In this document: piece by piece, positions 2,187-22,987 of the stretch
Numbering within the stretch: the first letter of the stretch is position 1
Layout of the letters: each line of letters starts with the position of its first letter
DNA from: a virus
Reading direction: 5' to 3' (one strand)
IMG/VR virus record: IMGVR_UViG_3300024323_000016
Location: 1 to 27,825 of that record
DNA: 27,825 nt
Made by a program: the position numbers and the translations under genes
Notes under the pieces: model-generated
The model's input: only the letters and a program-made list of their open reading frames with translations
What the model was told of the DNA's origin: nothing
Database searches by the model: none

Positions 2187-2229
2187 TCTCTCCTTATAAG
2201 AGTGATCTGGGGGAGTATAAGGCTCCCCC
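2187..2229 (-). promoter_or_regulatory. Kissing-loop leader RNA of HNH gene (copy 1 of 7)
   Basis: Hairpin 1 has stem 2223-2229 with 2209-2215 (GGGGGAG/CTCCCCC) and 7-nt loop CCTTATA (2216-2222). Hairpin 2 has stem CTCT (2199-2202) with AGAG (2188-2191) and 7-nt loop TATAAGG (2192-2198). The two loops are perfectly complementary. The SD (AAGGAG) is made of loop 2 plus stem 2, so folding should block ribosome binding. A further inverted repeat, CCGTGG/CCACGG, lies just upstream at 2243-2263. Confidence 0.85.
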
Positions 2230-2248
2230 TGTATCAGTAAAGCCGTGG

Positions 2249-2277
2249 ATTATAAGCCCACGGGAAGTATTTTACAA
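2249..2277 (-). promoter_or_regulatory. Sigma70-like promoter ahead of HNH gene
   Basis: TTGTAA (2272-2277), a 17-nt spacer and TATAAT (2249-2254), reading leftward. The -35 box overlaps the portal stop codon. The -10 box lies in the loop of the hairpin CCGTGG/CCACGG (2243-2263). It would give the HNH gene and the downstream head genes their own start. Sequence match only. Confidence 0.5.
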
Positions 2278-4386
2278 AGCTGTTGTTGAACCGAACCCAG
2301 ATGTTGTATTTTGTCCTATCAATTCAGGCTGTGTAGCCTTATTGATGGCGGCACGAAACGCTTCATTTCCTGCCTTACCCAACTGTTTCTGGTTCTCTAT
2401 TTGTTGTTCGTGCTCGAAGTTTGCTTTCTGCATTTGAGCGGCACTGGCTGCCTGTGCTTGCTGTAAGGCTGCAGGCGAGTTAGCTTGGTGACGCTGTGCT
2501 TCTTCTGGTGTCATCTTGCGGAGGAACGATTGACTAAATTTCCAACCCGCCGCATCCACAAACGCCTTAAAGATTGCAACAGCATCAAATTGATACCCTG
2601 CATCGTTAGCATTTGCTGTGAATGAGGGGTTGTTCAAAAGTTGAATAATTATAGGAAGGGCTTGCGCCATTTCCTTCTTCGCGCCCAACTGCGCGCCCGC
2701 GAGAACTTCATATTCGATGTTCGCTTCTCGGAATTCAATATGGTCGACTAGATATGGCTCACCAAGCTCGTCGCCGAGTAAGTCACGAATGACCGACGTT
2801 GGCAACAATAGATTGTTGAGTTCATCCATCTGATACAGCCACGGCTTGAACACTTGACGAACGAATCGTCCTGTCGGACCATCAAGTCGGCTGGCGTTAG
2901 CTTGAATAACCGCTGCCGCGCCCGTTCCCGAACGCATGCCTGTGGTTTTAATACCAGCGGCACCTGCGCCTTGAACAACTTGTTCGTTCGCTCCTGACGT
3001 CGACGCTCCCGATGACTGAGCTTGTGCAATGAACTGCCACGCTTCTCCCGGGACCGGCGGCATCTGAAGAAACTTAAATGCCTTGTCGACGTCTTCTTCG
3101 ACGTCGATAATTCCGCCTTGACGGCAACGGACGTCTTGGGTAAGAGCGTTAAAACCTTTCTTACGAACGGCGGTTGGTTGCAAACCGTACGCCAACAAAT
3201 CAAGAGCCAAGTTTGTTACGCCTTGCTCAACGATTTGCTCGCTTCCGATAAGAAGACCAAGCCCTTGTCCGTAAAAACAATCCGGAATGTTTCGCCAATT
3301 GAACGAATAGAACGGAATGTGTCCGTACGGGTTCGCTTCATTGCGAACAAGAATATTGTGTCCGTTGAAGGACAGAATCACAATAACCTTCTCGTCATCC
3401 CAACGTTCCAAAATCTCGATAGGTGAACGGTTAGGATCGGCTGAAGTCTTGTAGCTGCGTGGCAAAGCATGTTGGATATATCCCATCATGCCTTCCGGAA
3501 GCGTCATCGTAATATTGTCTGGACCCGATGTCGGGTTCTGCGCAAAGATTGCTCTGAGCACATCCTCTTCAGGAATGTTGTAGCCTTCTACGCCACGTAG
3601 ACGGTTAAGATCGCTGTACGTTGCGTAATCGCGATATACAACCCAGCCCGCGCGGCGAATGTCGCCGACGCGGCAACCCGGATTTACAAGCACTGTGCGA
3701 ATATCGCAGAATTTAATCCAAGGATGCGAAATCTTCTTCGTGTACTCTTCGGCTTCGTAATCATCCGATTCGGGTGTGTCAACCATCTTGACACTTCCGT
3801 CTGGTTGCTCAATAGGCTTACGTTCGCCTTTGCGCTTGTAACGGCGCATCTTCTTTTCGAATTCGACGAAACCGTACTTCATGATACCAGTGCCCAAAAG
3901 GGCAGCTTGTTCCATAGTACGTTCGACTTCTTCTTCGAAGTGCATCTGATCTAGTTGAGCCGAAAAAATTGCTTCTTTGGCTCTAACTACATCTTGCGAT
4001 ACAGACGGGCGAGGACGAAGATCGAATGGCGGGTCCTCGTAAAACAACCCTCCCATGACTTTGGGAACGATGGATGAAATGTGATTGCTCACCATGAATT
4101 TAGGAACCGATGAGCTTCCAACACTTCCGCCATCAAAGGCGCTTTGTGTCGCGGGTGATTGATACAATAAATCTGCGAGGGTCCACCCGCTACTCCATTG
4201 TTGGAGGTTCAAATACGAATCTGCTTCTGTTGTGTCGTCTATAACCAGTTTCACGGCGGCAGAATCGTTAAATGCGATGGTGTCGGTTTCTTTATCTACG
4301 TGTGTATTTTCCTCTGTAATCTCATTCGCAGGAGTAACATAGAGATCGTGGATTTTTTGCTGAATTCTCTGATCTTGGTCAGACAT
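2272..4386 (-). CDS. Portal (head-tail connector) protein
   Basis: 704 residues. The portal forms the dodecameric ring at the unique capsid vertex through which DNA is packed and ejected. The middle region looks like a podovirus-type portal: conserved proline/aromatic segments, and the stretch around residues 370-480 (binding to the vertex and channel, LGLLIGSEQIVEQ then Gly/Ser/Ala-rich GAGAAGIK) is typical of connector proteins. The C-terminal 100 residues are Gln/Ala-rich helical, as in the portal barrel. The length (about 700) is at the long end of the family. It follows terminase directly in transcription order apart from an inserted GIY-YIG gene. The GIY-YIG stop lies 8 nt inside the portal frame, so the insertion is right at the portal start; the SD (AGAG) is weak. 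Confidence 0.85.
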   Translation of the reverse strand: MSDQDQRIQQKIHDLYVTPANEITEENTHVDKETDTIAFNDSAAVKLVIDDTTEADSYLNLQQWSSGWTLADLLYQSPATQSAFDGGSVGSSSVPKFMVSNHISSIVPKVMGGLFYEDPPFDLRPRPSVSQDVVRAKEAIFSAQLDQMHFEEEVERTMEQAALLGTGIMKYGFVEFEKKMRRYKRKGERKPIEQPDGSVKMVDTPESDDYEAEEYTKKISHPWIKFCDIRTVLVNPGCRVGDIRRAGWVVYRDYATYSDLNRLRGVEGYNIPEEDVLRAIFAQNPTSGPDNITMTLPEGMMGYIQHALPRSYKTSADPNRSPIEILERWDDEKVIVILSFNGHNILVRNEANPYGHIPFYSFNWRNIPDCFYGQGLGLLIGSEQIVEQGVTNLALDLLAYGLQPTAVRKKGFNALTQDVRCRQGGIIDVEEDVDKAFKFLQMPPVPGEAWQFIAQAQSSGASTSGANEQVVQGAGAAGIKTTGMRSGTGAAAVIQANASRLDGPTGRFVRQVFKPWLYQMDELNNLLLPTSVIRDLLGDELGEPYLVDHIEFREANIEYEVLAGAQLGAKKEMAQALPIIIQLLNNPSFTANANDAGYQFDAVAIFKAFVDAAGWKFSQSFLRKMTPEEAQRHQANSPAALQQAQAASAAQMQKANFEHEQQIENQKQLGKAGNEAFRAAINKATQPELIGQNTTSGFGSTTAL

Positions 4387-5113
4387 TGCGCTCTCTTAAC
4401 CTTCTAGCCATTTGCGACAACTTCATCCTATGTTTAACCTCTTCAGATAAGGGCATTCGTTTCCTATCTTCTGGAGATTCGTTTAGCCGTCTCTTTTGTT
4501 GGGCTAAACGCATATTCTCACGAGTCTCTTCTGTTGCCTTTTTACCGCTGTGTGCGATAGAAAGTTGTTGCTTTGTTTCTTTTGAAAGAATTTTGCCTTT
4601 GTGCGCCGAACCTATCTTGCGTCGAGTTTCTTCAGACACGTGTCTTCCGCTGGGATTTTTATTCCCTTTCATGGCAGCGGACAGCTTTTGCCTTTGTTCA
4701 TGTGTCATCTTTTTACCGGTGTTAGCTAAAGACAGTTTTCTTTTTGTTTCTTCAGAAGGAACATGCCCCACACGATACTTATTGCCTTTGTGTAACTTAG
4801 AGATAGCTTGGCGTTGTTTTTCTGTTAATGGCGGTCTATCATCTCCACCGGGAAGAATGTTGTACCCGTTAGGAAACAAAGTGCAATAACGTTTTATGTA
4901 CTCTATCTCAAACTCATTCGCCAACTCTTTAGTCGGAACATCGAACAGAACTTCCATAGAGAAGTTCTCTCTTCCGTGTTTCTGAATCGCATTGTACAAA
5001 TATCGGCAATGATTTTTAGATACGTGCATGTTCCATCGAGCAGACAGGCTTTGTTTAGTCTGCCCAATGTACCGTTTGCCGTTAATCAAATTCGTAATCA
5101 AATAAATAAACAT
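4379..5113 (-). CDS. GIY-YIG homing endonuclease with NUMOD3 repeats
   Basis: 244 residues. The N-terminal GIY-YIG nuclease domain is visible as YLI near residue 4 and RYIGQT near residue 14, with an Arg in the following helix (SARW). Residues about 85-235 contain four or five copies of the NUMOD3-type DNA-binding motif (S-E-E/K-T-x-x-K-x-S-x-A-x-x-G-K). This is the architecture of segF/segG-type phage homing nucleases. I chose the ATG at 5113 rather than the longer frame to 5164 because AGGAGAG lies just before it. The gene lies between terminase and portal and overlaps the portal start by 8 nt. It has the same kissing-loop leader as the HNH genes, even though the nuclease fold is unrelated. 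Confidence 0.94.
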   Translation of the reverse strand: MFIYLITNLINGKRYIGQTKQSLSARWNMHVSKNHCRYLYNAIQKHGRENFSMEVLFDVPTKELANEFEIEYIKRYCTLFPNGYNILPGGDDRPPLTEKQRQAISKLHKGNKYRVGHVPSEETKRKLSLANTGKKMTHEQRQKLSAAMKGNKNPSGRHVSEETRRKIGSAHKGKILSKETKQQLSIAHSGKKATEETRENMRLAQQKRRLNESPEDRKRMPLSEEVKHRMKLSQMARRLRERNV

Positions 5114-5117
5114 TTTC

Positions 5118-5162
5118 ACTCTCCTGTAAAGAGTAGACTGAGGCGTGTTACAGGCACGCCCC
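5118..5162 (-). promoter_or_regulatory. Kissing-loop leader RNA of GIY-YIG gene (copy 2 of 7)
   Basis: Hairpin 1 has stem 5155-5162 with 5140-5147 (core GGCGTG/CACGCC) and loop CCTGTAA (5148-5154). Hairpin 2 has stem ACTCT/AGAGT (5130-5134 with 5118-5122) and loop TTACAGG (5123-5129). The loops are 7/7 complementary. The SD AGGAGAG is inside hairpin 2. The palindrome TTGTACGTACAA (5170-5181) lies 7 nt upstream. Confidence 0.87.
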
Positions 5163-5183
5163 AATCAGGTTGTACGTACAAAA

Positions 5184-7508
5184 TTAGATTCGCATTCCGG
5201 CGGGCAAAATCTTGCCAACCAGTTTTTTCATTAACTCTTGCCGAGAATCTCTCGGAGGAGGCGTGTCTATTACAATCGGTTCTTTTGGTTTTGTTGGAGA
5301 AGGACCGCCGTGCATGCGTTGGTACCAAGCGCTTCTTGCTTCTTTAGCTAGCATGTCTTCGTGTTCTTTTTCGACTTCTTTTGGGTCAGGATTGACCCCC
5401 AAAGCAGATGCCGGAAGATGTGTAACCGCCAAACTTATTGCGTCAACGATGTCATCTTTTTTGTATCCCGTGCTCTTGCCGCCTTTATAGTCAATGAACT
5501 GTTTATATAGCTCGTCAATCCACCAACCCTTAACGAACCACAAACGCTCTTGCGAATACAAAAACTGCAAATCCATAACGCGAATTTTCTTAGCTCCGCG
5601 CTCAACGTTGATTGGTCTGACTCGCCACTTGGACGGTAAATCGCAATTGACTCTTACGCAATTGGCTTTTACCAATTGTAAAAAGGAGTCTGTTCCATTC
5701 GTGTCTTCAATGAATACTCTATTCGGCTTGTGCTTATCATAATACTTCATGAAATGATAAGACAACTCGGACGACTTCCATTTTCCGTAAAGAACGTCCA
5801 AGACTACTATTCCGGGCATACCGTACTTGTCTCTGTAAATTCCCAGAGTTGCACCAACTGAATAGTCTGACGTCTTTTTGTCTCCGTACGCTGTGTCCCA
5901 TGACTGTATAACTTCTATCAACGGGGGAACAGCAGAACGGTCGTACGTGTGCGCTCTTAGCCCATCTTCGTCGAACTGACTGATGAACAAGTCGTCTACG
6001 GCGGGATCAGTAGCTATATTAAGCTGCTGATTTTTAAAACTGCGCTCGCCTTTCTTTTTCAAAGTTCGAGCTAATTCTTCCCACGTAAGTTTGTACGGAT
6101 GAACTAACTTGGCTCGTTTTTGTTGGATGATATCTTTAACAGTAAGATTACCGCGATCAAAATGCTGCTGGTCTTCTTTGTTAAGAATCCAAGAACTTCG
6201 GCAGCTATACAAAAGAGGAGCGATGTCCTTAGAGCCCTCGTCTTGGGGCAACTGACGAGTGCCGTACCAGTCGGTTGTAAAATATCTCGTTCCACACGAA
6301 TCTGTAAATCCCCAAGGATCGCGCACGTCTTCGTATGCGTTAATCCTGAATTTTAAGGCTTCCCGTTTTTCAGGATTATCAGAATTTTTTAAGTCGACGG
6401 CATCATCAAACTTACAAATGTCACAGTGTTTTCCAGTGCTCGTAATCTGCATCGACGTCGCCCATACACTGGGCTGAGGCTGATGGTGGATACGCGCTGG
6501 ACATTCCAAAGGCTGCTCAGACCAACCGTCTGTGCCTGTTAGAATAAACTCCGGGAAAAGCATTTGGAAGGCACTGGGACGAGCGCCACTAGCCAAATAA
6601 AAATGAGCTTTCTTTACGTCCGTGGCAAATTCTTCGGCCAAATCTTTTGTAGACGTGATGAACATGATTCTAATATCAGCCGCTGATATCAACCACTGTA
6701 CAACGTCTATTCTGTTTATCGTGCTTTTGTAGGAACTTCTGGGTTCCAAAAGCATCATTTCACGCGTCTCTCTCGGGGTATCGACATCTACCCCAAGATT
6801 GGCATAGCGCTTCTGTTTACGCATTGCCGAATGGAAATCGTCGAGCGTATAACCCGGAAAATACAGCCCTTCAAAATTCTTAGCCACAAATTGCTTGCAG
6901 ACATACTGGTGGGACATGTGGTACAAGCCGTAGCCTAACAAACGACCTAGCCAAAACAAGTCTAAACGAGCTTTCGCGCGCAAATCTAACCAGCGACGAA
7001 ACGAAACTATCTCGTCTACTTCTTTAGCGCCACGATACTCTCGCCCACAATCTTTGTGGTCACAGTTGTCAATACAGTCTGGCTCTATCGGCCTTTCGAG
7101 AGAAACCTTTACGCCGTCACCTAAATCGTGATCCTCGATGTACGATATGGCTTTTATGGTTATTTTTTGAAAAGACGGGTTAGGCCAATTTTTTTTCTTC
7201 TTTTTCGATTTCTTTTTCTTTGGCTCTTCTTCGTCGTCCAACTCTTTGTCGTGGATATCTATGCCTTCGTATATCGCTAGAAGATCGACGTGGGGCATTT
7301 GTTCGCCCCTATAAAACACACCTAGAGCATCTTGCTCTGTGGCCCAAGCCAAGTTAAGCTCGTGCTCTTTTCCGTATTTTTGGATAGCGTCTTCAGGAGG
7401 CGGTGCAGGTTGTGATGCCTGTAATCTATCTTTTTCTGCTTTCTTGCGTGCTCTAAAAGCAGCTTGACGAAGACGATTTGATTCTCTTTCTTCTTGTGTT
7501 AGAGCCAT
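5184..7508 (-). CDS. terL: Terminase large subunit (DNA packaging ATPase/nuclease)
   Basis: 774 residues, started by an ATG after GAGGAGAG. The ATPase domain has a Walker A-like EPRSSYKST near residues 255-263 and a Walker B-like stretch KFDDAV near 366-371. The RNase H-like nuclease domain is marked by SWDTA (Asp near 538), FIEDTNG (Glu/Asp near 601-602) and a C-terminal DDIVDA near 695. The motor pumps DNA into the prohead at the portal and cuts concatemers. Unusual parts are an N-terminal extension of about 165 residues with a run of lysines (97-106), and a small Cys/His cluster CxxxxCDHxxC at 145-154 that could bind zinc. It is longer than the common 450-650 residues. The first three packaging genes follow in order terminase, (GIY-YIG), portal. 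Confidence 0.93.
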   Translation of the reverse strand: MALTQEERESNRLRQAAFRARKKAEKDRLQASQPAPPPEDAIQKYGKEHELNLAWATEQDALGVFYRGEQMPHVDLLAIYEGIDIHDKELDDEEEPKKKKSKKKKKNWPNPSFQKITIKAISYIEDHDLGDGVKVSLERPIEPDCIDNCDHKDCGREYRGAKEVDEIVSFRRWLDLRAKARLDLFWLGRLLGYGLYHMSHQYVCKQFVAKNFEGLYFPGYTLDDFHSAMRKQKRYANLGVDVDTPRETREMMLLEPRSSYKSTINRIDVVQWLISAADIRIMFITSTKDLAEEFATDVKKAHFYLASGARPSAFQMLFPEFILTGTDGWSEQPLECPARIHHQPQPSVWATSMQITSTGKHCDICKFDDAVDLKNSDNPEKREALKFRINAYEDVRDPWGFTDSCGTRYFTTDWYGTRQLPQDEGSKDIAPLLYSCRSSWILNKEDQQHFDRGNLTVKDIIQQKRAKLVHPYKLTWEELARTLKKKGERSFKNQQLNIATDPAVDDLFISQFDEDGLRAHTYDRSAVPPLIEVIQSWDTAYGDKKTSDYSVGATLGIYRDKYGMPGIVVLDVLYGKWKSSELSYHFMKYYDKHKPNRVFIEDTNGTDSFLQLVKANCVRVNCDLPSKWRVRPINVERGAKKIRVMDLQFLYSQERLWFVKGWWIDELYKQFIDYKGGKSTGYKKDDIVDAISLAVTHLPASALGVNPDPKEVEKEHEDMLAKEARSAWYQRMHGGPSPTKPKEPIVIDTPPPRDSRQELMKKLVGKILPAGMRI

Positions 7509-8329: not shown

Positions 8330-8530
8330 TTACTTTTTATGATTCCACTTAGACATCGTATGCGCGAACTCGGCCATTTTTCGGACGTGCTCGTTCGTGC
8401 TGTGGCGAGCCGCCTGAACCTTCTCTTCAGGAATCTGTTGCCCTTGAGCAACACCTAATGCCTTGTGCAGATTTCCTTTTCTGAGTTGATGCAAACTTCT
8501 ATAGAGAGACGGGTTTTTTACTTTCGCCAT
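8330..8530 (-). CDS. Small basic helical protein
   Basis: 66 residues, basic (many Lys, His, Arg) and mostly helical. It is not recognised. A GCAGGAG Shine-Dalgarno site lies 7 nt before the ATG. The first 32 nt are inside the 3' end of the upstream HNH gene, so that HNH gene has invaded the very start of this gene, leaving the SD of the target gene inside the HNH coding region. Confidence 0.7.
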   Translation of the reverse strand: MAKVKNPSLYRSLHQLRKGNLHKALGVAQGQQIPEEKVQAARHSTNEHVRKMAEFAHTMSKWNHKK

Positions 8531-9113
8531 CTAAATACTCCTGCAACAAATTTGTTGCGATTTCAAAATCTTCAGCGGTTGGCTCTAATTCTATGTCTTT
8601 GGATTTTTCTAAATACTCTGCTGCTCTTCTTAGAATTTCGGGGCTGTCTTTAAAGAATCCTAAAGCAGAATTACAGGGTTTACACAACATACCCCTAACA
8701 TACTTTCCTACGTGGCTGTGATCTGTTGCACAGCTAATCGCATCTATGGGATCAAAACAGATGGCGCAAATACTTCCTTGGATTTCTACCAACGCCTGTT
8801 TTAACTCCGGCGTTATATCGTACTTGGCAGAAAGTTGCCAACGCCTTCTATCTTCTTTGTACTTTTCTGGATTTTCTACTTTAAGTCTAGCCATTCTTTC
8901 GCGAGTTGTTTTGTTTCTACGCTCTCGGTTCTCGGGCCTGTTCTTCCATTGTTCGGCTGCTGGAAGCCACAAGTGCCCACGTTTTGCATAGCACTCTTTA
9001 TGCGCCGTCCTTGTACAATCCTTACAGCGGTATTGTAAACCGTCGGGAGCGACTCTATTCTTTTGAAAAGAATCTAAGGACAGTTCTTGCTTGCAATGAC
9101 AACATGTTTTCAT
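8499..9113 (-). CDS. HNH homing-type endonuclease, Endonuclease VII-like with N-terminal zinc ribbon
   Basis: 204 residues. The N-terminus has a zinc ribbon (CxxC near residues 4-7 and CxxC near 30-33). The C-terminal nuclease core has CAIC, then a TDHSH metal/His core, then MLCxxCN and ALGFFKDS, which is the Endonuclease VII pattern. ATG 9113 is preceded by AGGAGAAT within the kissing-loop leader (9117-9162). Its 3' end overlaps the next gene by 32 nt. Related in core sequence to the HNH genes at 1689-2183 and 12200-12829. Confidence 0.93.
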   Translation of the reverse strand: MKTCCHCKQELSLDSFQKNRVAPDGLQYRCKDCTRTAHKECYAKRGHLWLPAAEQWKNRPENRERRNKTTRERMARLKVENPEKYKEDRRRWQLSAKYDITPELKQALVEIQGSICAICFDPIDAISCATDHSHVGKYVRGMLCKPCNSALGFFKDSPEILRRAAEYLEKSKDIELEPTAEDFEIATNLLQEYLDGESKKPVSL

Positions 9114-9116
9114 TTT

Positions 9117-9162
9117 ATTCTCCTAAACAGAATGCGACCCGGGGCGTGGTTTAGGCACGCCC
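9117..9162 (-). promoter_or_regulatory. Kissing-loop leader RNA of HNH gene (copy 3 of 7)
   Basis: Hairpin 1: GGGCGTG (9156-9162) with CACGCCC (9142-9148), loop CCTAAAC (9149-9155). Hairpin 2: ATTCT (9129-9133) with AGAAT (9117-9121), loop GTTTAGG (9122-9128). Loops are 7/7 complementary. Stem 2 differs from copy 2 by a compensatory C-G to T-A change. A CCTCGGG-type hairpin lies upstream at 9174-9193. Confidence 0.86.
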
Positions 9163-9173: not shown

Positions 9174-9193
9174 CCTCAGGAGCAACCCCGAGG
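9174..9193 (-). repeat. CCTCGGGGTTGCTCC hairpin, shared by two endonuclease leaders
   Basis: A 20-nt hairpin (CCTCGGG with CCTGAGG) around loop GTTGCT. A close copy lies at 12887-12906 upstream of another HNH leader, with changes U-A to U-G and G-U to G-C that keep pairing. Preceded by an AT-rich segment in both places. Confidence 0.6.
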
Positions 9194-12199: not shown

Positions 12200-12829
12200 T
12201 TATGACGCGACAGAAATATTCTGTACGCCATCACAGACAGTTTGGATCGAGCTACCGTCTGCGTGTTTTCGTAAATACAAAATCGCATTTACGAGAATCT
12301 TTTCATTTTCGTAAGAGTTTCCTAACAGCAGATTACAACTAGAGCACAATAAATCTCTCAGTTTACCTGTCTCGTGATTGTGGTCTTGGCAAACTCTTTT
12401 ACCGCGAGGTTTTCCGCTGGTAATCATAGGCTCTTTACAAATAGAACAAAGCCCTCGCTGTAGATTAAACTGAGCTTCAAACTCTTCTCTCGTTATTCCG
12501 TATTTCTTTTTTCTATACCAACTTCGACAAAACTGTTTGTGTTTAACAGAATTTTTAGCCGCCCATTTTTCGGCTCTTTCTTTTACTTTTTCGGCTACTT
12601 TTTGATATTCTAGATTTTCACAAATCCTACATTTGCCTCTGCCGATTTTTAGTGTCGATGGGTTGCTGTTGCTCTCAGAAAAAATCTCTTTGCATGCATG
12701 ACATCTGCCGGGACCTCTTTTTATTCGGGCACACGAACGGCAATATCCGGCTCTCTTTTTAAAAACAGATGGCTTAGAGTTTTCTAAAGTTAAAACATTT
12801 TTGCAAAACGAACATAATCCGCTTCTCAT
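12200..12829 (-). CDS. HNH homing-type endonuclease, Endonuclease VII-like with zinc fingers
   Basis: 209 residues. The N-terminal half carries three zinc-knuckle pairs (CSFC and CRSC, CHAC and CRIC; residues 6-80). The C-terminal core is Endonuclease VII-like: CSIC, QDHNHETGKLRDLLC, SSCNLLLG. The ATG at 12829 is chosen because AGGAG lies just before it in the kissing-loop leader; the frame upstream to 12943 is not supported. Unlike the other six nuclease genes its stop is 58 nt before the next gene's start. Confidence 0.93.
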   Translation of the reverse strand: MRSGLCSFCKNVLTLENSKPSVFKKRAGYCRSCARIKRGPGRCHACKEIFSESNSNPSTLKIGRGKCRICENLEYQKVAEKVKERAEKWAAKNSVKHKQFCRSWYRKKKYGITREEFEAQFNLQRGLCSICKEPMITSGKPRGKRVCQDHNHETGKLRDLLCSSCNLLLGNSYENEKILVNAILYLRKHADGSSIQTVCDGVQNISVAS

Positions 12830-12833
12830 TTTT

Positions 12834-12878
12834 ATTCTCCTATTAAGAACGACAAGGAGGGTGTAATAGGCACCCTCC
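12834..12878 (-). promoter_or_regulatory. Kissing-loop leader RNA of HNH gene (copy 4 of 7)
   Basis: Hairpin 1: GGAGGGTG (12871-12878) with CACCCTCC (12856-12863), loop CCTATTA (12864-12870). Hairpin 2: GTTCT (12846-12850) with AGAAT (12834-12838), loop TAATAGG (12839-12845). Loops 7/7 complementary. SD AGGAGA is in hairpin 2. Confidence 0.86.
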
Positions 12879-12886: not shown

Positions 12887-12906
12887 CCCCGGGAGCAACC
12901 CCGAGG
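12887..12906 (-). repeat. CCTCGGGGTTGCTCC hairpin, second copy
   Basis: Stem CCTCGGG with CCCGGGG around loop GTTGCT, 8 nt upstream of the kissing-loop leader. Related to 9174-9193 with pair-preserving changes. Confidence 0.55.
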
Positions 12907-15044: not shown

Positions 15045-15118
15045 TGGCAGGCCGTGAGTGAATCGGACACCCGTTGCTCGATTTGGAGGCGAGCAGATTG
15101 CCACTATCTTAACGACCT
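15045..15118 (-). tRNA. tRNA-Trp (CCA)
   Basis: Anticodon loop CTCCAAA, acceptor AGGTCGT/ACGGCCT, G73, encoded CCA. A C-U mismatch closes the anticodon stem. The first 10 nt also encode the end of an HNH gene. Confidence 0.88.
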
Positions 15119-15507
15119 AAATAAAATCTACATCTACTGCTGTGGTTGTTTTTGAATCGGTTGCACACTTTACAGATGTGCTTTTTACGATGACAGTTCG
15201 AACAAAGTATTACACATTTGGCAATTTCTTTTTCGAGGTGGCTTAACGACCACCCTACACGAAAAACTTGACTGATAGCCTTTTCTTTAATTTTGGGGTT
15301 CTTGTGATGAAAATCCAAACATCTAATGTCTTTTTCACCACACACCACACACTTCGATGCTTTCTTTACAGACTTGATAAAAGAACGAATTTTAGATGCT
15401 TGCTTACGGTTTCGTTGATAGTGTTCTTCTTTATTTCTGTAGTAGTAATCCCTACGATACTTTCGCATTTCTTCTGCGTGTTTTCGTTTCCATCTATCAC
15501 TACCCAT
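15109..15507 (-). CDS. HNH homing-type endonuclease inserted at tRNA-Trp
   Basis: 132 residues. The N-terminal third is basic and helical (Lys/Arg/Tyr-rich, DNA contact). The HNH core reads CVVCGEKDIRCLDFHHK, then LEKEIAKCVILCSNCHRKKH, then a zinc pair CKVC. It is closely related to the HNH at 20896-21354 in the motif LDFxH and EIAKCVIxCxNCH. ATG 15507 was chosen because AAGGGAGGG lies before it in the kissing-loop leader; the frame upstream is untranslated. The last codons and stop lie inside the first 10 nt of tRNA-Trp, so the gene has integrated exactly at the tRNA 5' end. Confidence 0.93.
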   Translation of the reverse strand: MGSDRWKRKHAEEMRKYRRDYYYRNKEEHYQRNRKQASKIRSFIKSVKKASKCVVCGEKDIRCLDFHHKNPKIKEKAISQVFRVGWSLSHLEKEIAKCVILCSNCHRKKHICKVCNRFKNNHSSRCRFYLGR

Positions 15508-15512
15508 ATAGT

Positions 15513-15557
15513 GCCCTCCCTTAAAGAGCAAGTCGGGGAGTGTTAAGGGCACTCCCC
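15513..15557 (-). promoter_or_regulatory. Kissing-loop leader RNA of HNH gene (copy 5 of 7)
   Basis: Hairpin 1: GGGGAGTG (15550-15557) with CACTCCCC (15535-15542), loop CCCTTAA (15543-15549). Hairpin 2: GCTCT (15525-15529) with AGGGC (15513-15517), loop TTAAGGG (15518-15524). Loops 7/7 complementary. The G-C end pair of stem 2 covaries with copies 2 and 3. Palindrome TTGTACGTACAA is 6 nt upstream (15564-15575). Confidence 0.88.
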
Positions 15558-15577
15558 AACTAATTGTACGTACAAAC

Positions 15578-18245: not shown

Positions 18246-18321
18246 TGGTGGAGCTTGTCGGCTCTGCCCCGACCGCCTCAGATTTGCAAAACCTGCGCTC
18301 TCCTGAATGAGCTAAAACCCC
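18246..18321 (-). tRNA. tRNA-Ala (TGC) with aberrant T-loop
   Basis: Anticodon loop TTTGCAA, acceptor GGGGTTT/AAGCTCC, D-arm GCTC/GAGC, encoded CCA. The T-loop reads GGCAGAG where TTCRANY is expected, so the T54-psi55-C56 triad is missing. The T-stem GTCGG/CCGAC is intact. Confidence 0.85.
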
Positions 18322-18331
18322 ATTGAAAATT

Positions 18332-18405
18332 TGGTACCGAAGGAGGGTACTGACCCCTCGCCGCGAGATTGAAAGTCTCGTATCCTGCCTTTAGATGACT
18401 TCGGC
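18332..18405 (-). tRNA. tRNA-Glu (TTC)
   Basis: Anticodon loop CTTTCAA, acceptor GCCGAAG/CTTCGGT, encoded CCA. T-loop GTCAGTA starts with G instead of T. Its first 15 nt lie inside the end of the coding gene upstream. Confidence 0.88.
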
Positions 18406-18696: not shown

Positions 18697-18733
18697 TATA
18701 ACCCTCCTACAACTATACATCTACTTCAAAACT

Positions 18734-18807
18734 TGGTGACGTCGCCGGGGATCGGACCCGGACTACTTGGTTGAGAACCAAGTGTTCTGCCATTAGACTA
18801 CAACGCC
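18734..18807 (-). tRNA. tRNA-Glu (CTC)
   Basis: Anticodon loop TTCTCAA, acceptor GGCGTTG/CGACGTC, T-loop TCCGATC, encoded CCA. Confidence 0.9.
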
Positions 18808-18813
18808 GTAACT

Positions 18814-18896
18814 TGGTGGGCAAGATCGGAATCGAACCGATAACCTTTCGGAGCGCGTTTTAAGTGCGCCGCGTTTGCCTGTTTCGCCACAAGCCC
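18814..18896 (-). tRNA. tRNA-Leu (TAA)
   Basis: Long variable arm (TCCGAAAGGT), anticodon loop CTTAAAA, acceptor GGGCTTG/CTTGCCC with two U-U mismatches, T-loop TTCGATT, CCA encoded. Confidence 0.87.
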
Positions 18897-18900
18897 AAAC

Positions 18901-18995
18901 TGGTATTGGCCTAGCGAGTCGAACGCTATCGGCAACTCTAATCAGGAGTCAATCCGGGCTTTATAAGAGCCCGCTGCATACCGATGCTGACCAAT
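18901..18995 (-). tRNA. Atypical tRNA, probably Ile (two anticodon-like arms)
   Basis: Acceptor ATTGGTC/GGCCAAT, T-arm TAGCG-TTCGACT-CGCTA and encoded CCA are good. Two anticodon-like arms lie in tandem: GGGCT-CTTATAA-AGCCC (anticodon TAT) and GACTC-CTGATTA-GAGTT (anticodon GAT). Normal variable-loop spacing follows the second, so the first may be an insertion in the D-loop. Both would read Ile. 95 nt is much longer than normal. Confidence 0.65.
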
Positions 18996-19003
18996 GAAAT
19001 TTT

Positions 19004-19054
19004 GCGGACGACTTCATCGTACATCCTTCTGTGTCTTACGAGCACAGCGTCCGC
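19004..19054 (-). ncRNA. Candidate structured RNA with possible pseudoknot
   Basis: A 7-bp stem GCGGACG/CGTCCGC (19048-19054 with 19004-19010) encloses hairpin CTGTG/CACAG whose loop contains TCGTA, complementary to TACGA downstream in the same element. No CCA. Confidence 0.4.
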
Positions 19055-19062
19055 GAGTAAAC

Positions 19063-19170
19063 TTAATGATGAAACACTTTCCAAAGAATGATGAGAGAAG
19101 CAGTTGCGCTCAGCATACCACTAACCGTTCGTGCTATCGCTAGAGCTAAATCCCACTGCTGCCTTGTCAT
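19063..19170 (-). CDS. 35-residue membrane peptide, overlapping the end of another gene
   Basis: ATG 19170 follows AAGGACA closely. The peptide has one hydrophobic helix (SGMLSATASLIILWKVF). It lies partly inside the end of the 78-residue gene at 19121-19357 in another frame. Spacing of the SD is short, so translation is not certain. Confidence 0.4.
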   Translation of the reverse strand: MTRQQWDLALAIARTVSGMLSATASLIILWKVFHH

Positions 19171-19357
19171 TGTCCTTCTTCTTCAAACGGCTTTCGTACC
19201 ATTTCCGTCTTAGATCAAGATATTGTTTCTGTGCCTCTAAACTCTCTCGACTGATGAGCAAACTTTCTTTTGCCATCTGACGCATCGCGTGATCGTCGAG
19301 ATAAATCAAGAACAAGATGACTGCTTCGAGAATCAGGAGTGCGTCCTGCCACGTCAT
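19121..19357 (-). CDS. Single-pass membrane protein with coiled coil, spanin-like
   Basis: 78 residues. An N-terminal hydrophobic helix (LLILEAVILFLIYL) is followed by a long charged amphipathic helix (ESLEAQKQYLDLRRKWYESRLKKKDND) and a Ser/Thr tail. This N-anchor plus coiled-coil layout is like an inner-membrane spanin (Rz) or a small holin partner, but no Rz1-type lipoprotein is identified next to it. SD AGGTG is 4 nt upstream. A 35-residue membrane frame overlaps its 3' end. Identity unproven. Confidence 0.65.
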   Translation of the reverse strand: MTWQDALLILEAVILFLIYLDDHAMRQMAKESLLISRESLEAQKQYLDLRRKWYESRLKKKDNDKAAVGFSSSDSTNG

Positions 19358-19377
19358 AAGTCACCTGTTAAACTCGT

Positions 19378-19578
19378 TTATTCGAAACTTTTAAAACCGT
19401 CCAAGCCTTGCTTTTCAAAAACCTCGGTGAAATAAGAGAACCTTGTTCGCATCCAGAAATCCAAATCGTCTTTGATCTCGATTCGTTGCCCAGTACGTCC
19501 GTCGGTGACGAACAGTTTCAATCGTTCTGGTAAATCCAGAATGTAGCCAGACATCTTGCGTTGTATTATTCTTCCCAT
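19378..19578 (-). CDS. Hypothetical small protein
   Basis: 66 residues, moderately charged, no membrane segment or known motif (WMRTRFSYFTEVFEKQG near the C-terminus). The first ATG has no Shine-Dalgarno and lies 7 nt after the CCA of tRNA-Val; translation may instead start at Met9. It ends 20 nt before the next gene. Confidence 0.5.
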   Translation of the reverse strand: MGRIIQRKMSGYILDLPERLKLFVTDGRTGQRIEIKDDLDFWMRTRFSYFTEVFEKQGLDGFKSFE

Positions 19579-19584
19579 AAAATT

Positions 19585-19661
19585 TGGTAGAAAGCCACGG
19601 ACTCGAACCGTGAACCTACTGCTTGTAAGGCAGCCGCTCTGACCAATTGAGCTAGCCTTCT
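19585..19661 (-). tRNA. tRNA-Val (TAC)
   Basis: Anticodon loop CTTACAA, acceptor AGAAGGC/GCTTTCT, D-arm GCTC/GAGC, T-loop TTCGAGT, encoded CCA. Confidence 0.93.
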
Positions 19662-19857
19662 ACAGAAAATTGTTACGGCGTGCTACCATTGCACCATAAG
19701 CGACGCGCCGTATACACGGCTGACTCGCGCCTCGGATCGCTCCGACATTGCTTTTGTGAGACTCGAACTCACATCTCCGGTTTTAACGGTGTCTTACCAT
19801 TCGACGAACGGCCTCCGAAGAAACCGTGTTGGACTCGAACCAACATCTCCGTAAGAT
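19662..19857 (-). other. tRNA fragments (halves), decayed or permuted
   Basis: Between tRNA-Lys and tRNA-Val. In transcription order: a 3' half (ACGG, AGAT, T-arm GTTGG/CCAAC, acceptor strand ACGGTTT), linker CTTCGG, a 5' half (AGGCCGT, D-arm with AATGGTA, CCGTT), then a second 3' half (CCGG, AGAT, T-arm GTGAG/CTCAC, AAAAGCA), then another 5' half (TCGCTTA, GTGC-AATGGTA-GCAC, CCGTA). No complete cloverleaf or CCA. Confidence 0.5.
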
Positions 19858-19933
19858 TGGTGGGTCCGGTAGGCAACGATCCTACACGCCCCTATTTAAA
19901 AGATAGGTGCTCTGCCAATTGAGCTACAAACCC
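19858..19933 (-). tRNA. tRNA-Lys (TTT)
   Basis: Anticodon loop CTTTTAA, acceptor GGGTTTG/CGGACCC, encoded CCA. T-loop ATCGTTG is non-standard at position 54. Confidence 0.9.
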
Positions 19934-19939
19934 AAAACT

Positions 19940-20015
19940 TGGTCGTCCGCCTCGGGCTCGAACCGAGACCAGCTTCTTTAAGAGAGAAGTATTCTGCCCC
20001 TCGAAATCGCAGACG
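19940..20015 (-). tRNA. tRNA-Lys (CTT)
   Basis: Anticodon loop CTCTTAA, acceptor CGTCTGC/GCGGACG, T-loop TTCGAGC, encoded CCA. Confidence 0.91.
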
Positions 20016-20126
20016 AAAATTAATGGCAACGCTATAATCAGACTTTTGTCATACGCTTACGCGCGGGGCGAACATTCCTCTGAGCCTTTAACCCGACCCT
20101 CATCGTGCTCAACAAGCACTCGGGTC
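20016..20126. other. Spacer with hairpin, no gene
   Basis: Contains ACCCGA/TCGGGT (20120-20125 with 20091-20096) enclosing GTGCT/AGCAC. No tRNA or supported coding frame. Confidence 0.35.
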
Positions 20127-20402
20127 CTATTTAAAGTTACACCAGAAAAGAGTTACTCGGCTCCAATGAGTCTTTCGACTACCGAGGCTTACTTGTACGA
20201 TTACTCGTCTTGCAACTTCCACAATTCTGTGTTGAGGCGTGGCCTGAATTTCCTCGGGTACGATATGTACAAATCTTTCGACTTGCACCTTTTCGTACAC
20301 GCGTTCGTCTACGCTACCAAACTTCTTCGTGTCGGGCGCTTTTAAATTCCGTTGCGATTCTCTAATTGAATCGTCGGACGCCCTTCGGGGGTTCTTTGCC
20401 AC
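20127..20402 (-). CDS. Possible 91-residue protein, unsupported start
   Basis: From a GTG at 20402 the frame is open for 91 residues and looks protein-like (RVYEKVQVERFVHIVPEE, then RIVEVARRVIVQVSLG). No Shine-Dalgarno is visible, and the opposite strand also has an open frame here. It starts 12 nt after the 3' end of tRNA-Cys. I favour the minus-strand frame because all neighbours use that strand. Confidence 0.4.
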   Translation of the reverse strand: MAKNPRRASDDSIRESQRNLKAPDTKKFGSVDERVYEKVQVERFVHIVPEEIQATPQHRIVEVARRVIVQVSLGSRKTHWSRVTLFWCNFK

Positions 20403-20413
20403 TTTCACGAACT

Positions 20414-20487
20414 TGGAGCACGAGGCTGGAGTCGAACCAGCGGTTGATGTTTTGCAGACACCTAGCTTACCGTTTGCCGACTCGTGC
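20414..20487 (-). tRNA. tRNA-Cys (GCA)
   Basis: Perfect acceptor GCACGAG/CTCGTGC, anticodon loop CTGCAAA, T73, CCA encoded. Confidence 0.93.
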
Positions 20488-20497
20488 GAAATATTTT

Positions 20498-20632
20498 GAT
20501 GCGTCCACCCTCGTCGCAACTTACTATCAGTAACAAACGCTCAATTCTTAGTTGTACGTTTAAGTTCTGAGCCAGCGGTGGCAATCAGCGCGGCCTGCTA
20601 AGACAGACCATGTAGCCCTTGCGGGCCGCATC
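20498..20632 (-). ncRNA. Candidate structured spacer RNA
   Basis: Closed by GATGCG/CGCATC, with inner hairpins GCCC-GCAA-GGGC and GCCA-CCGC-TGGC. No tRNA features or CCA. Purely fold-based; function unknown. Confidence 0.3.
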
Positions 20633-20637
20633 AAACT

Positions 20638-20721
20638 TGGTCCGCCGCGTAGGATTCGAACCTACACCCTTTCGGATTCGGGTTTGAGCCGAACGCGTCT
20701 GCCAATTCCAGCCAGCAGCGG
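20638..20721 (-). tRNA. tRNA-Leu (CAA)
   Basis: Anticodon loop CTCAAAC, long variable arm, acceptor CCGCTGC/GCGGCGG, T-loop TTCGAAT, encoded CCA. Confidence 0.91.
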
Positions 20722-20801
20722 ATTAAATTTATTCACCCTCAGCACGGAACAAACGTGTGCCTCATAGCCTTCGGGGACGTGTCCCACCCCTCGGGGAAAC
20801 T

Positions 20802-20878
20802 TGGTGACCTCGGTGTGATTCGAACACACAACCCGCCGTTTAGGAAACGGCTGCGCTATCCATTTGCGCCACGGGGTC
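20802..20878 (-). tRNA. tRNA-Arg (CCT)
   Basis: Anticodon loop TTCCTAA, D-arm GCGC/GCGC, acceptor GACCCCG/CGAGGTC with one mismatch, encoded CCA. Confidence 0.91.
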
Positions 20879-20885
20879 AAAATTT

Positions 20886-20960
20886 TGGAAGGCCGTCACG
20901 GATGTGCGCCGTGGTTTGCGGTTTCGTAGACCGCCGTCTTATCTGCTGGACCAACAGCCC
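20886..20960 (-). tRNA. tRNA-Arg (ACG), embedded in an HNH gene
   Basis: Acceptor GGGCTGT/ACGGCCT (7 bp with two wobbles), D-stem GTC/GAC, anticodon loop CTACGAA, T-arm CACGG/CCGTG with loop CGCACAT, T73 and encoded CCA. 65 of its 75 nt also code for the C-terminus of the HNH gene at 20896-21354. Confidence 0.82.
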
Positions 20961-21354
20961 TTTGATACTTTTTCATGTGCCCGTAGGTCTTACGGCGGTG
21001 ACAATTAGCGCACCGAATAACGCACTTGGCAATTTCTTTTAGTATGATATGCCACTGATAAGAAGACCTTGCCATCACGCTGACTTCTGTTCTCTTCTTA
21101 CCTATCACGTGGTCGAAATCCAAGACTACCGGGTCACTCTCACCACAATCAACACAAGGATGCTCTCTCAGGTATTGAACCAAACGAGTTTGTGAATCCT
21201 TTTTGTATCTTTTGTTCCTGTCTAAATATTGCTTCTTGTTTGCACTATAGTGCGAACGAACATAAGCGTTTTGACACTTTTTACAGTGATAATAAAACTT
21301 CCCGTTTGGGCGTTTATGAAACTCGCCTTCTTTACCACACTTTCGACAAACCAT
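20896..21354 (-). CDS. HNH homing-type endonuclease whose frame runs through tRNA-Arg
   Basis: 152 residues. Zinc ribbon at the N-terminus (CRKC near 3-6, CKKC near 24-27), basic central helix, then HNH core CVDCGESDPVVLDFDH, LKEIAKCVIRCANCHRRK. Very similar core to the HNH at 15109-15507. The nuclease core ends about 20 residues before the stop; those last residues are encoded by the tRNA-Arg (ACG) gene and the stop TGA lies in its T-arm. SD GGAGGG lies before ATG 21354 in the kissing-loop leader. Confidence 0.93.
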   Translation of the reverse strand: MVCRKCGKEGEFHKRPNGKFYYHCKKCQNAYVRSHYSANKKQYLDRNKRYKKDSQTRLVQYLREHPCVDCGESDPVVLDFDHVIGKKRTEVSVMARSSYQWHIILKEIAKCVIRCANCHRRKTYGHMKKYQRAVGPADKTAVYETANHGAHP

Positions 21355-21357
21355 TTC

Positions 21358-21400
21358 ACCCTCCGCAATAGAGTGGGTGGGAGTGATTGCGGCACTCCCA
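21358..21400 (-). promoter_or_regulatory. Kissing-loop leader RNA of HNH gene (copy 6 of 7)
   Basis: Hairpin 1: TGGGAGTG (21393-21400) with CACTCCCA (21378-21385), loop CCGCAAT (21386-21392). Hairpin 2: ACTCT (21370-21374) with AGGGT (21358-21362), loop ATTGCGG (21363-21369). Loops 7/7 complementary. Palindrome TGTACGTACA lies 5 nt upstream (21406-21415). Confidence 0.87.
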
Positions 21401-21424
21401 ACCGATGTACGTACAAAATTAAAT

Positions 21425-21478
21425 TGGTTGCTGGCCCCTTCGATTCATGAGGTCTAGAGGAGCGCGCCTACGCCAGCA
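21425..21478 (-). ncRNA. 54-nt mini-tRNA-like element with CCA
   Basis: A perfect 7-bp acceptor TGCTGGC/GCCAGCA followed by A-CCA encloses only 36 nt, too few for a cloverleaf. It starts 4 nt after tRNA-Arg (TCT). Inside, CCTC/GGGG and AGG/CCT small arms can form. Remnant or tRNA-like substrate. Confidence 0.55.
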
Positions 21479-21482
21479 ATAT

Positions 21483-21557
21483 TGGGGGTTCCACTCGGAA
21501 TCGAACCGAGATTCGGTGCTTAGAAGGCACCATCCTATCCTTTTAGACGATAGAACC
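21483..21557 (-). tRNA. tRNA-Arg (TCT)
   Basis: Anticodon loop CTTCTAA, acceptor GGTTCTA/TGGAACC, T-loop TTCGATT, C73, encoded CCA. Confidence 0.92.
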
Positions 21558-21563
21558 AAATTC

Positions 21564-21683
21564 TTAAAATAAAAAGTACGTTGCTTGCTCTCGAATATCT
21601 TCCCATCGCACGCCGATGAGCACTGCAACCGCTCCAATCAAAACGACTGGGATTAACTTTACTGGAAAGCTTAGGTACTTCAT
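21564..21683 (-). CDS. 39-residue membrane peptide
   Basis: One hydrophobic helix (PVVLIGAVAVLIGVRW). A strong GGAGGA lies 3 nt before ATG 21683. Single-helix peptide; function unknown. Confidence 0.65.
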   Translation of the reverse strand: MKYLSFPVKLIPVVLIGAVAVLIGVRWEDIREQATYFLF

Positions 21684-21698
21684 GCTTCCTCCAAAATT

Positions 21699-21783
21699 TG
21701 GTTCCCGAGGTGGGACTTGGACCCACAATCTCTTTCGAGCGCCGAGGTCTAAACTCGGTAAGTATGCATTCCTCCACTCGGGA
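21699..21783 (-). tRNA. tRNA-Leu (TAG)
   Basis: Perfect acceptor TCCCGAG/CTCGGGA, anticodon loop TTTAGAC, long variable arm, encoded CCA. Confidence 0.93.
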
Positions 21784-21883
21784 ATAGAAATCCGGGCCGG
21801 TATTTAATCAGCGCACCCCGGCCACCGCGCGTAGGCGGAATAAGGTGCTGGGGCGATCTTTTATCGCCGGAGCCGTATGCGCC
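21784..21883. other. GC-rich spacer with hairpins, no gene
   Basis: Contains GGCCGG/CCGGCC around 17 nt and GGCGAT-AAAAG-ATCGCC. No tRNA or coding gene found. Confidence 0.35.
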
Positions 21884-22006
21884 TTACCAGTCGACGACGC
21901 CAATCATTGGGAGCGACCCGAGATTGTTGAGGCTCTTGTTGTACAACATCTCTTCCACGGTGGCTTCACGCCTCGGTGTAGGATTTTTCTCGAACCGTCG
22001 AAACAG
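21884..22006 (-). CDS. Possible 40-residue protein from a non-ATG start
   Basis: A protein-like frame (FRRFEKNPTPRREATVEEML, ending IGVVDW) begins just after tRNA-Asp. GGGAG precedes CTG at 22006, a rare start codon, so the start is uncertain. Confidence 0.4.
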   Translation of the reverse strand: MFRRFEKNPTPRREATVEEMLYNKSLNNLGSLPMIGVVDW

Positions 22007-22032
22007 CCCGAGAAAACTCCCGTGGAATATCT

Positions 22033-22107
22033 TGGCAGAGATAACCAGAATCGAACTGGCACTTCGCCCGTGACAGGGGCGCGTCGTTACCAACTGACCC
22101 TATCTCT
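22033..22107 (-). tRNA. tRNA-Asp (GTC)
   Basis: Perfect acceptor AGAGATA/TATCTCT, anticodon loop CTGTCAC, G73, encoded CCA. Confidence 0.93.
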
Positions 22108-22130
22108 GTTGAAAATCTTTCTGCCAATCG

Positions 22131-22203
22131 CTGGAGCGGCAGGAGTCGAACCTGCGATGTCTGCATTAACAGTGCAGCGGATTACCAGCTTGCCTACACT
22201 CCA
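22131..22203 (-). tRNA. tRNA-Asn (GTT), no encoded CCA
   Basis: Anticodon loop CTGTTAA, acceptor TGGAGTG/CGCTCCA, T-loop TTCGACT. After G73 the sequence is CGA, and it pairs with TCG before the tRNA, so the CCA must be added by the host enzyme. Confidence 0.88.
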
Positions 22204-22220
22204 GCGACGGGCAGAAAACT

Positions 22221-22308
22221 TGGTCGGGCTGCGAGGATTCGAACCTCGAAGGTCGTAGACACTCGGTTCCGAACCGAGACCGCTGCCAGATTACGGAACT
22301 ACAACCCG
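22221..22308 (-). tRNA. tRNA-Pro (CGG) with extended variable arm
   Basis: Anticodon loop TTCGGAA, acceptor CGGGTTG/CAGCCCG, T-arm CGAGG/CCTCG, CCA. A 13-nt variable region folds as GTC-TAC-GAC; the D-arm is longer than usual. The first 18 nt lie in the end of an HNH gene. Confidence 0.87.
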
Positions 22309-22944
22309 ATCTAAAATCAAAATTCCTAAATCTAATTCAACGTGATGATTAGGACACAGAGCCACAAGATTGCTTTGTGCGTTAATCTCAGATAATAAAG
22401 CGTTGCTCGGAAACTCTTTTATCGGTTTTATGTGACAGCAATCAACGCGTATGCTATAACCACAAACCTTACACTTACGATCTGATGCCTTAAATAGTTC
22501 TTTTCTAGCGTGTAATCTTACTTCTTGTATTCTGCATTCCGATTTCTTTCTTGACGAAAGAATAGAAACTATCGGCAGATGCCTACAATCGGAACAACGA
22601 ACTGTTCGTTTATACGGACTCGTGTACTTCACACCACAAGACGTACAAACTCGTATTTTAGGCACTCGGTGCGGATAACCTAAAACACGATTCTGATACT
22701 TAGCACCACAAGAATGACCACAAAATTTTTTCTTTTTTATCCAAGCAAATTGACTACCTGTGGCGCCTGCGTGAACCAAAATAGGCGCTTTACATTCTTT
22801 ACAATAGTTCGGAGACTCGTTATATTTTCTACGTCTCTCAAGAGAAAGAACAGTGTTAGCTACTCTTCCTAAATCAGCGGCTATTCTTGCTTGCGCCAGT
22901 TTAGCTTCGCTCACAACTTTGAACTTGTATCCTACGGGTAACAT
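22291..22944 (-). CDS. HNH homing-type endonuclease with zinc fingers, inserted at tRNA-Pro
   Basis: 217 residues. Several zinc pairs: CKEC near 48, CGHSC near 74, CTSC and CSDC near 97-118, and CKVC near 158, followed by the HNH core (VDCCHIKPIKEF then NLVALCPNHHVELD). The N-terminal part is basic and may bind DNA by a helix. ATG 22944 follows AGGAGA in the kissing-loop leader. The stop TAA lies 18 nt inside tRNA-Pro (CGG), so it has integrated at that tRNA's 5' end. Confidence 0.92.
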   Translation of the reverse strand: MLPVGYKFKVVSEAKLAQARIAADLGRVANTVLSLERRRKYNESPNYCKECKAPILVHAGATGSQFAWIKKKKFCGHSCGAKYQNRVLGYPHRVPKIRVCTSCGVKYTSPYKRTVRCSDCRHLPIVSILSSRKKSECRIQEVRLHARKELFKASDRKCKVCGYSIRVDCCHIKPIKEFPSNALLSEINAQSNLVALCPNHHVELDLGILILDRVVVP

Positions 22945-22946
22945 GT

Positions 22947-22987
22947 CTCTCCTCTAAAGAGCGGCTGGGGATGTTAGAGGCATCCCC
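22947..22987 (-). promoter_or_regulatory. Kissing-loop leader RNA of HNH gene (copy 7 of 7)
   Basis: Hairpin 1: GGGGATG (22981-22987) with CATCCCC (22967-22973), loop CCTCTAA (22974-22980). Hairpin 2: CTCT (22958-22961) with AGAG (22947-22950), loop TTAGAGG (22951-22957). Loops 7/7 complementary. A further inverted repeat GTTCCG/CGGAAC lies upstream (22995-23015). Confidence 0.86.

Follow-up and report, generated by a model that had tools for sequence, protein, structure and literature searches.

A covarying tandem-hairpin leader with complementary loops at the start of homing-type endonuclease genes in a virus fragment and related loci

The IMG/VR record IMGVR_UViG_3300024323_000016 was analysed over positions 1 to 27,825 (hereafter, the window), a 27.8-kb virus fragment with seven endonuclease genes of homing type, all on the minus strand and all preceded by the same RNA leader (Table 1). 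Each of the seven ATG codons (2183, 5113, 9113, 12829, 15507, 21354 and 22944) sits a few bases 3′ of a tandem hairpin, at the sites where a first-pass annotation, made from the sequence alone, had placed them. The leader begins with hairpin 1, which has an upper stem of 7–8 base pairs (bp) and a loop of 7 nucleotides (nt) starting with CC. A short spacer follows, and then hairpin 2 (4–6 bp, 7-nt loop ending in GG), which runs on into the Shine-Dalgarno (SD) sequence AGAG, AGAA or AGGG. The two loops had been described as fully complementary, and they form 7 of 7 Watson-Crick pairs in all seven copies. The SD lies within loop 2 and stem 2 in 7 of 7 window copies and in nearly all of the 104 distinct copies considered below.

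The genes behind the leaders comprise three endonuclease VII-type HNH, one HNH_2, two PHROG-2255 HNH and one GIY-YIG with NUMOD3, in agreement with the earlier count of six HNH genes and one GIY-YIG gene. Pfam and PHROGs place them in separate HNH and GIY-YIG classes; the sharing of one leader by unrelated nuclease families stands. When the leader-linked proteins were used as queries, no further nuclease-like open reading frame (ORF) was found in the window, the sole extra match being the 12829 gene with its frame read from an earlier codon. Scanning the window with the two-stem model described below returned the seven leaders and no other credible match. At 26200–26235 on the plus strand, two hairpins have complementary 7-nt loops (ACAGTGT/ACACTGT) without an SD or start codon; this is probably a chance occurrence.

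Covariation, anatomy and spread of the leader

In the seven window leaders alone, 98.5% of cells were paired and 11 of 20 pairs had changed on both sides. Covariation was 0.567, compared with 0.186 in shuffled alignments and 0.07–0.12 in slid registers. A covariance model and search, the check proposed with the first-pass annotation, was then applied to 74 loci (designated here by L numbers). The model encoded the two stems only, without the loop-loop pairing, and Cmsearch recovered 110 copies, 104 of them distinct. Stem 1 was paired in 99.9% of cells of this larger alignment, stem 2 in 90.7%, and the loop-loop helix, absent from the model, in 99.6%. Changes on both sides were seen at 6 of the 7 loop-loop pairs (one pair in up to 65 of 99 copies), and slid and shuffled controls failed to reproduce the pairing. 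The observation is confirmed and reaches well beyond the seven copies first reported, and the leader is supported as a genuine RNA element that covaries and in which the two loops form a helix. The possibility that loop pairing was an artefact of the search is ruled out, because both the model and the sequence pattern used below leave the loops free.

The same relation appears between individual copies. Loop lengths co-vary, 6-nt loops standing opposite 6-nt loops. A pair of close relatives (left flank 94%, right flank 87% identical) carries matched changes in both loops, CCTCAAT/ATTGAGG versus CCTAAAC/GTTTAGG, and both loops changed together between L023 and L018. Chance, or recent common descent without function, would be compatible with the relatedness of the copies and with some near-identical leaders. 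However, 50 different loops occur among the 104 rows with complementarity kept, the slid and shuffled controls fail, and at L018 the leader is intact despite a largely deleted gene; we give this explanation practically no weight.

Wobble pairs are unevenly distributed. Only 2 of ~697 cells in the loop-loop helix are G-U, versus 31 in stem 1; their near-absence from the loop helix may reflect a geometric intolerance of wobble pairs. In stem 1 the 31 G-U cells compare with a single A-C cell in an alignment fitted to stem 1, which somewhat favours G-U, and this excess points to selection on the sense-strand RNA.

The larger set also refines the anatomy. The 3–8 nt linker reported between the hairpins is present as a spacer, but most of it pairs with bases 5′ of hairpin 1, forming a lower stem 1 with a mean of 3.1 bp, versus 2.2 ± 0.12 with shuffled partners. 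Because these linker bases pair upstream, stem 1 is often 10–13 bp overall, and the earlier value of 7–8 bp applies to its upper part. Where the lower stem has at least 3 bp, mostly 0–2 unpaired nt remain; most raw linkers are at least 4 nt long. Stem 2 is the weakest helix and often lacks its outermost pair. A further hairpin or palindrome upstream of stem 1, not noticed in the first reading and here called H0, was detected with arms of 5 bp or more in 60 of 79 copies, compared with ~31% of shuffles. Clear H0 copies lie mostly 3–16 nt from stem 1, and of the H0 loops of at least 4 nt, 13 of 38 contain a 6-mer palindrome (1.8 expected).

Beyond the window, terminase-defined relatives (58–60% identity) have the leader at other sites, before other nucleases. 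The window phage itself is unlike GenBank phages, with a terminase identity of at best ~23%. A model-free search covered 1.57 Mb. With both stems, complementary loops and a terminal GG in loop 2 required, it identified 169 sites whose loops pair perfectly, some being the antisense image of another; shuffled sequence yielded 0. A pattern fixing only three loop bases matched 63 stretches in viral contigs, and a looser pattern at least 120, many by chance. The strict pattern leaves four loop positions free; these paired 4/4 in 55 of its 57 distinct viral hits (chance 1/256 each), compared with only 2 of 24 distinct genome-contig hits in bacterial genomes. Both pairing bacterial hits lie on one contig (L094) of a Bacteroidetes metagenome-assembled genome, and this contig is probably viral; among 295 bacterial genomes from the same class, the leader was found in that assembly only.

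Association with nuclease genes and mobility

A nuclease-like ORF, recognized with a phmmer query set assembled from the leader-linked genes, follows 99 of the 110 copies, and the remaining 11 stand mostly before decayed, frameshifted or contig-end-cut genes. Conversely, 126 of 161 nuclease-like ORFs have a leader (103 by the strict and 23 by the relaxed rule), compared with 7 of 1434 other ORFs under the relaxed rule. Since the query set includes two proteins not known as nucleases, an AAA ATPase (L098) and a ParB-like protein (L130), the association is nearly, not fully, exclusive. According to Pfam, the 78 leader-linked proteins include Endonuclease_7 (29), NUMOD3 (9), GIY-YIG (8), SegE GIY-YIG (5) and several HNH families; by PHROGs, most are named endonuclease VII, HNH or homing endonuclease.

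Empty-site comparisons define the mobile unit. At L004 and L005 the terminase/portal junction reads TAAATG, stop then start, with no insert. In the window 797 bp lie exactly between the terminase stop and the portal start: the palindrome TTTTGTACGTACAA, the leader, and the GIY-YIG gene ending in the portal's first codons. The GIY-YIG stop falls inside the beginning of the portal gene (4379–4386), so the insertion has left no spacer. An HNH cassette is likewise present in L005 and absent from L004, with flanks 95–100% identical, and it too starts at the upstream palindrome, TTTGTAGCTACAA. At both sites a nuclease gene is thus present or absent with clean junctions, as for a free-standing cassette, and the insert starts at H0.

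Two further cases involve L018. L018 and L024 have the same leader loops and a common flank next to them on the upstream side (97%), with different nucleases behind. At L018 9926–9972, an intact leader precedes an internally deleted nuclease gene, of which a 34-aa remnant is left. From these cases and the empty sites, the leader belongs to the mobile unit and can outlast its gene. The proposal that it travels with the mobile genes is borne out, leader and H0 both lying inside the insertion.

Three of the window cassettes (15109–15557, 20896–21400 and 22291–22988) lie among or directly beside an array of 28 transfer RNA (tRNA) genes predicted by ARAGORN on the minus strand (13935–22308).

Table 1. 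Leaders, H0 elements and associated genes in the window, with leader-like structures before other genes at three further loci
Feature	Position	Strand	Sequence or match	Remark
Leader 1	2184..2230	-	stem 1 GGGGGAG/CTCCCCC, loop CCTTATA; stem 2 CTCT/AGAG, loop TATAAGG (SD)	55.2 bits
H0 of leader 1	2243..2263	-	CCGTGG-GCTTATAAT-CCACGG	loop holds 6-mer palindrome TTATAA
HNH homing-type endonuclease behind leader 1	1689..2183	-	Pfam Endonuclease_7, 4.8e-22	
Leader 2	5115..5166	-	stem 1 12 bp GATTGGGGCGTG/CACGCCTCAGTC, loop CCTGTAA; stem 2 ACTCT/AGAGT, loop TTACAGG	60 bits
H0 of leader 2	5170..5181	-	palindrome TTGTACGTACAA	
GIY-YIG homing-type endonuclease with NUMOD3 behind leader 2	4379..5113	-		stop codon inside portal gene start (ATGTCTGA)
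Inserted cassette (H0, leader 2, GIY-YIG gene)	4387..5183	-		between terminase stop 5184-5186 and portal ATG 4386
Leader 3	9114..9162	-	loops CCTAAAC / GTTTAGG	precedes HNH gene 8499-9113
H0 of leader 3	9174..9193	-	CCTCGGG-GTTGCT-CCTGAGG	read from sequence
HNH endonuclease behind leader 3	8499..9113	-	Endonuclease_7, 4.9e-20	
Leader 4	12831..12878	-	loops CCTATTA / TAATAGG	precedes HNH gene 12200-12829
H0 of leader 4	12887..12906	-	CCTCGGGGTTGCTCCCGGGG	read from sequence
HNH endonuclease behind leader 4	12200..12829	-	Endonuclease_7, 2.7e-17	
Leader 5	15510..15561	-	stem 1 12 bp, loops CCCTTAA / TTAAGGG	precedes HNH gene 15109-15507
H0 of leader 5	15564..15575	-	palindrome TTGTACGTACAA	
HNH endonuclease behind leader 5	15109..15507	-	phrog_2255, 9.4e-23	
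Leader 6	21355..21400	-	loops CCGCAAT / ATTGCGG	precedes HNH gene 20896-21354
H0 of leader 6	21406..21415	-	palindrome TGTACGTACA	
HNH endonuclease behind leader 6	20896..21354	-	phrog_2255, 4e-31	
Leader 7	22943..22991	-	loops CCTCTAA / TTAGAGG	precedes HNH_2 gene 22291-22944
H0 of leader 7	22995..23015	-	GTTCCG-CCTAATTAA-CGGAAC	loop holds 6-mer palindrome TAATTA
HNH endonuclease behind leader 7	22291..22944	-	HNH_2, 9.1e-6	
Leader-like structure before AAA ATPase	L098 1817-1862			
Leader-like structure before ParB-like protein	L130 256-297			
Leader-like structure before possible replication protein	L038 5401-5447			

Proposed burial of the translation start and rival readings

We consider the leader to be, more likely than not, a cis-acting mRNA structure of tailed-phage homing-endonuclease cassettes that buries the ribosome site and would repress and insulate the nuclease gene, giving low, context-independent translation. 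Start-site occlusion is the best-supported function because the SD sits in loop 2 and stem 2. In the proposed arrangement the cassette would run from H0 through the long hairpin 1 and the short, SD-bearing hairpin 2 to the ATG and the nuclease gene. The anti-SD-like loop 1 (CCTNNNN) would pair with loop 2 (NNNNAGG) over 6–7 Watson-Crick bases while stem 2 pairs the remaining SD (AGAG). Since the loop helix and stem 2 together cover the SD, the ribosome site would be buried in any mRNA that receives the cassette. The ribosome or some other factor may open the structure at a low rate, so that a nuclease otherwise burdensome in a highly expressed operon, such as terminase/portal, would be translated at a low level whatever its context. 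Since the leader is repeated in over 100 gene copies of uncultured phages and is mobile together with those genes, it has the look of a built-in volume control that mobile genes carry.

Several features of the alignment bear on this reading. Almost all copies have an anti-SD-like loop 1, the register of the leader is fixed relative to the SD and start codon, and in one variant (L116) the SD has shifted from loop 2 into stem 2 with the loops still paired; judged from sequence, these observations point to a burying of the translation start. The loop duplex has an estimated energy of −7.2 kcal/mol and hairpin 2 one of −2.2 kcal/mol on average; together with general knowledge of SD occlusion, these values predict clear repression. 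The same data weigh on the idea that the hairpins act as DNA, serving the nuclease or the cassette as a site for recombination, cleavage or replication. The position of the leader within the mobile unit, the often perfect DNA palindrome of H0 and the almost exclusively Watson-Crick loop pairs would suit such a site, but the constant distance to the SD and start codon, the G-U excess in stem 1 indicating selection on sense RNA, and the anti-SD-like loop 1 make it highly improbable. A transcription terminator was rejected: most copies have no following T run, and three terminator-like window leaders have only scattered T.

Four observations weigh against the burial reading. In some cassettes (L154, L043) the whole leader is immediately preceded by a sigma-70-like promoter. 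A few copies precede genes not known as nucleases (L098, L130 and possibly L038). Eleven named phages, ten of them chosen for similar nuclease or ParB-like genes, had no leader near those genes; genome-wide they gave only weak model matches (in ESCO5, Y8A and KIL2), and no kissing-loop pair was seen around the inspected matches of ESCO5 and Y8A. Finally, where free linkers are 0–3 nt the three helices may not coexist.

The TTGACA-N17-TATAAT-like promoters of L154, L043 and others were read by eye from the sequence; in positions 1–16000 of the window, the count of sigma-70-like matches was near that of shuffled sequence. Sigma-70-like promoters upstream of the leader were noted in L043, L154, L003, L046 and L047. 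Between the −35 and −10 elements, cassettes of the L043 type also have an inverted repeat (such as GGTTGCAACC), which could be an operator.

The linker problem was addressed with a coarse rigid-body model, a feasibility check in which hinges are free. All three helices fit with a linker of at least about 5–6 nt and were strained at 0–3 nt; the notion that they can never coexist was therefore dropped. An H-type pseudoknot (stem 1 and loop helix, with stem 2 open) fitted every case tried, and the 3′ pairing of loop 1 with loop 2 in 99.6% of cells is the arrangement of such a pseudoknot. With geometry judged so coarsely, a bistable switch or H-type pseudoknot is kept as the main rival: stem 1 would be constant, loop 1 would pair with the SD region, stem 2 would be the alternative state, and a ligand, protein, ribosome or temperature would choose between them. 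The longer stem 1 uses up much of the linker, stem 2 is weak next to the loop duplex, and covariation is seen in stem 2 as well as in the loop helix, so both are used. However, the loops match each other in length and pair along their whole extent, in the manner of full kissing complexes; raw linkers are mostly 4 nt or longer; and the model leaves its hinges free. We regard a switch or pseudoknot as a serious but less probable alternative.

Fully complementary 7-nt loops, like those of ColE1 RNA I/RNA II, together with the 6-mer palindromes in H0 loops, might instead suggest action in trans, with hairpin 1 pairing with loop 2 of another mRNA, or leader dimers, so that copies regulate each other. 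However, copies in the same genome all differ in their loops and would therefore not cross-pair (0 of 99 pairs identical, 1.8 expected; this avoidance is not significant, P = 0.15); such trans action seems very unlikely. It is also rather unlikely that the leader is a mobile RNA lock in which each cassette has a private matched loop pair, unlike those of neighbouring cassettes in the phage, and a phage or host factor, or infection timing, opens all of them by shared shape and not by sequence.

Comparison with known RNA leaders

The first-pass annotation had named no known family with this paired 7-nt loop design, and none was found in Rfam 15 or the literature searched. Only tRNAs match Rfam 15 above gathering score in the window, and nothing credible matches around the 5113 leader at E values up to 5. 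In the literature covered, with most subscription papers outside it, no homing gene was described with a leader of tandem hairpins or kissing loops. Occlusion of the ribosome-binding site of phage homing nucleases is already known from T4; the two-hairpin RNA architecture with matched loops appears to be undescribed. The leader is strongly supported as a conserved RNA family; it is linked almost exclusively to selfish homing endonucleases, which belong to unrelated classes and with which it travels, and through it a mobile gene may bring a brake on translation of its own into essential operons of the phage. The leader would also offer a compact natural example of kissing-loop or pseudoknot control of translation, with more than 100 natural variants, and could be used to mark homing cassettes in metagenomes.

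Three known systems are close to it. The ColE1 RNA I/RNA II kissing complex joins fully complementary 7-nt loops of two molecules in plasmid replication control and is recognized by Rop. The leader has the same loop length and complementarity; unlike ColE1, it is a single mRNA, both loops lying within ~50 nt of one strand, and the pairing lies over an SD. In T-even gene 32 mRNA, an H-type autoregulatory pseudoknot pairs a hairpin loop with downstream sequence near the translation start. The leader is likewise a phage mRNA whose loop pairs downstream near the start, but here the downstream partner includes the SD and is itself looped out by a second, covarying hairpin.

The nearest functional parallel is found in T4 I-TevI, I-TevII, I-TevIII and segB and in Aeh1 mobE, in which RNA structures hide the ribosome-binding site and late promoters relieve the block (PMC2988022). 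Both kinds of leader belong to phage homing genes and hold the SD in an RNA structure right before the start codon; T4-type leaders are reported to limit translation, and by the position of its SD the present leader may be likened to them. In the T4 type, the hairpin varies from gene to gene and the transcript of the late promoter lacks it. Such relief by a shorter late transcript would be inapplicable to cassettes like those of L154 and L043, in which the promoter precedes the whole leader. Unlike the T4 type, the leader described here consists of two hairpins with matched loops, keeps one design for HNH and GIY-YIG genes, and lies inside the cassette.

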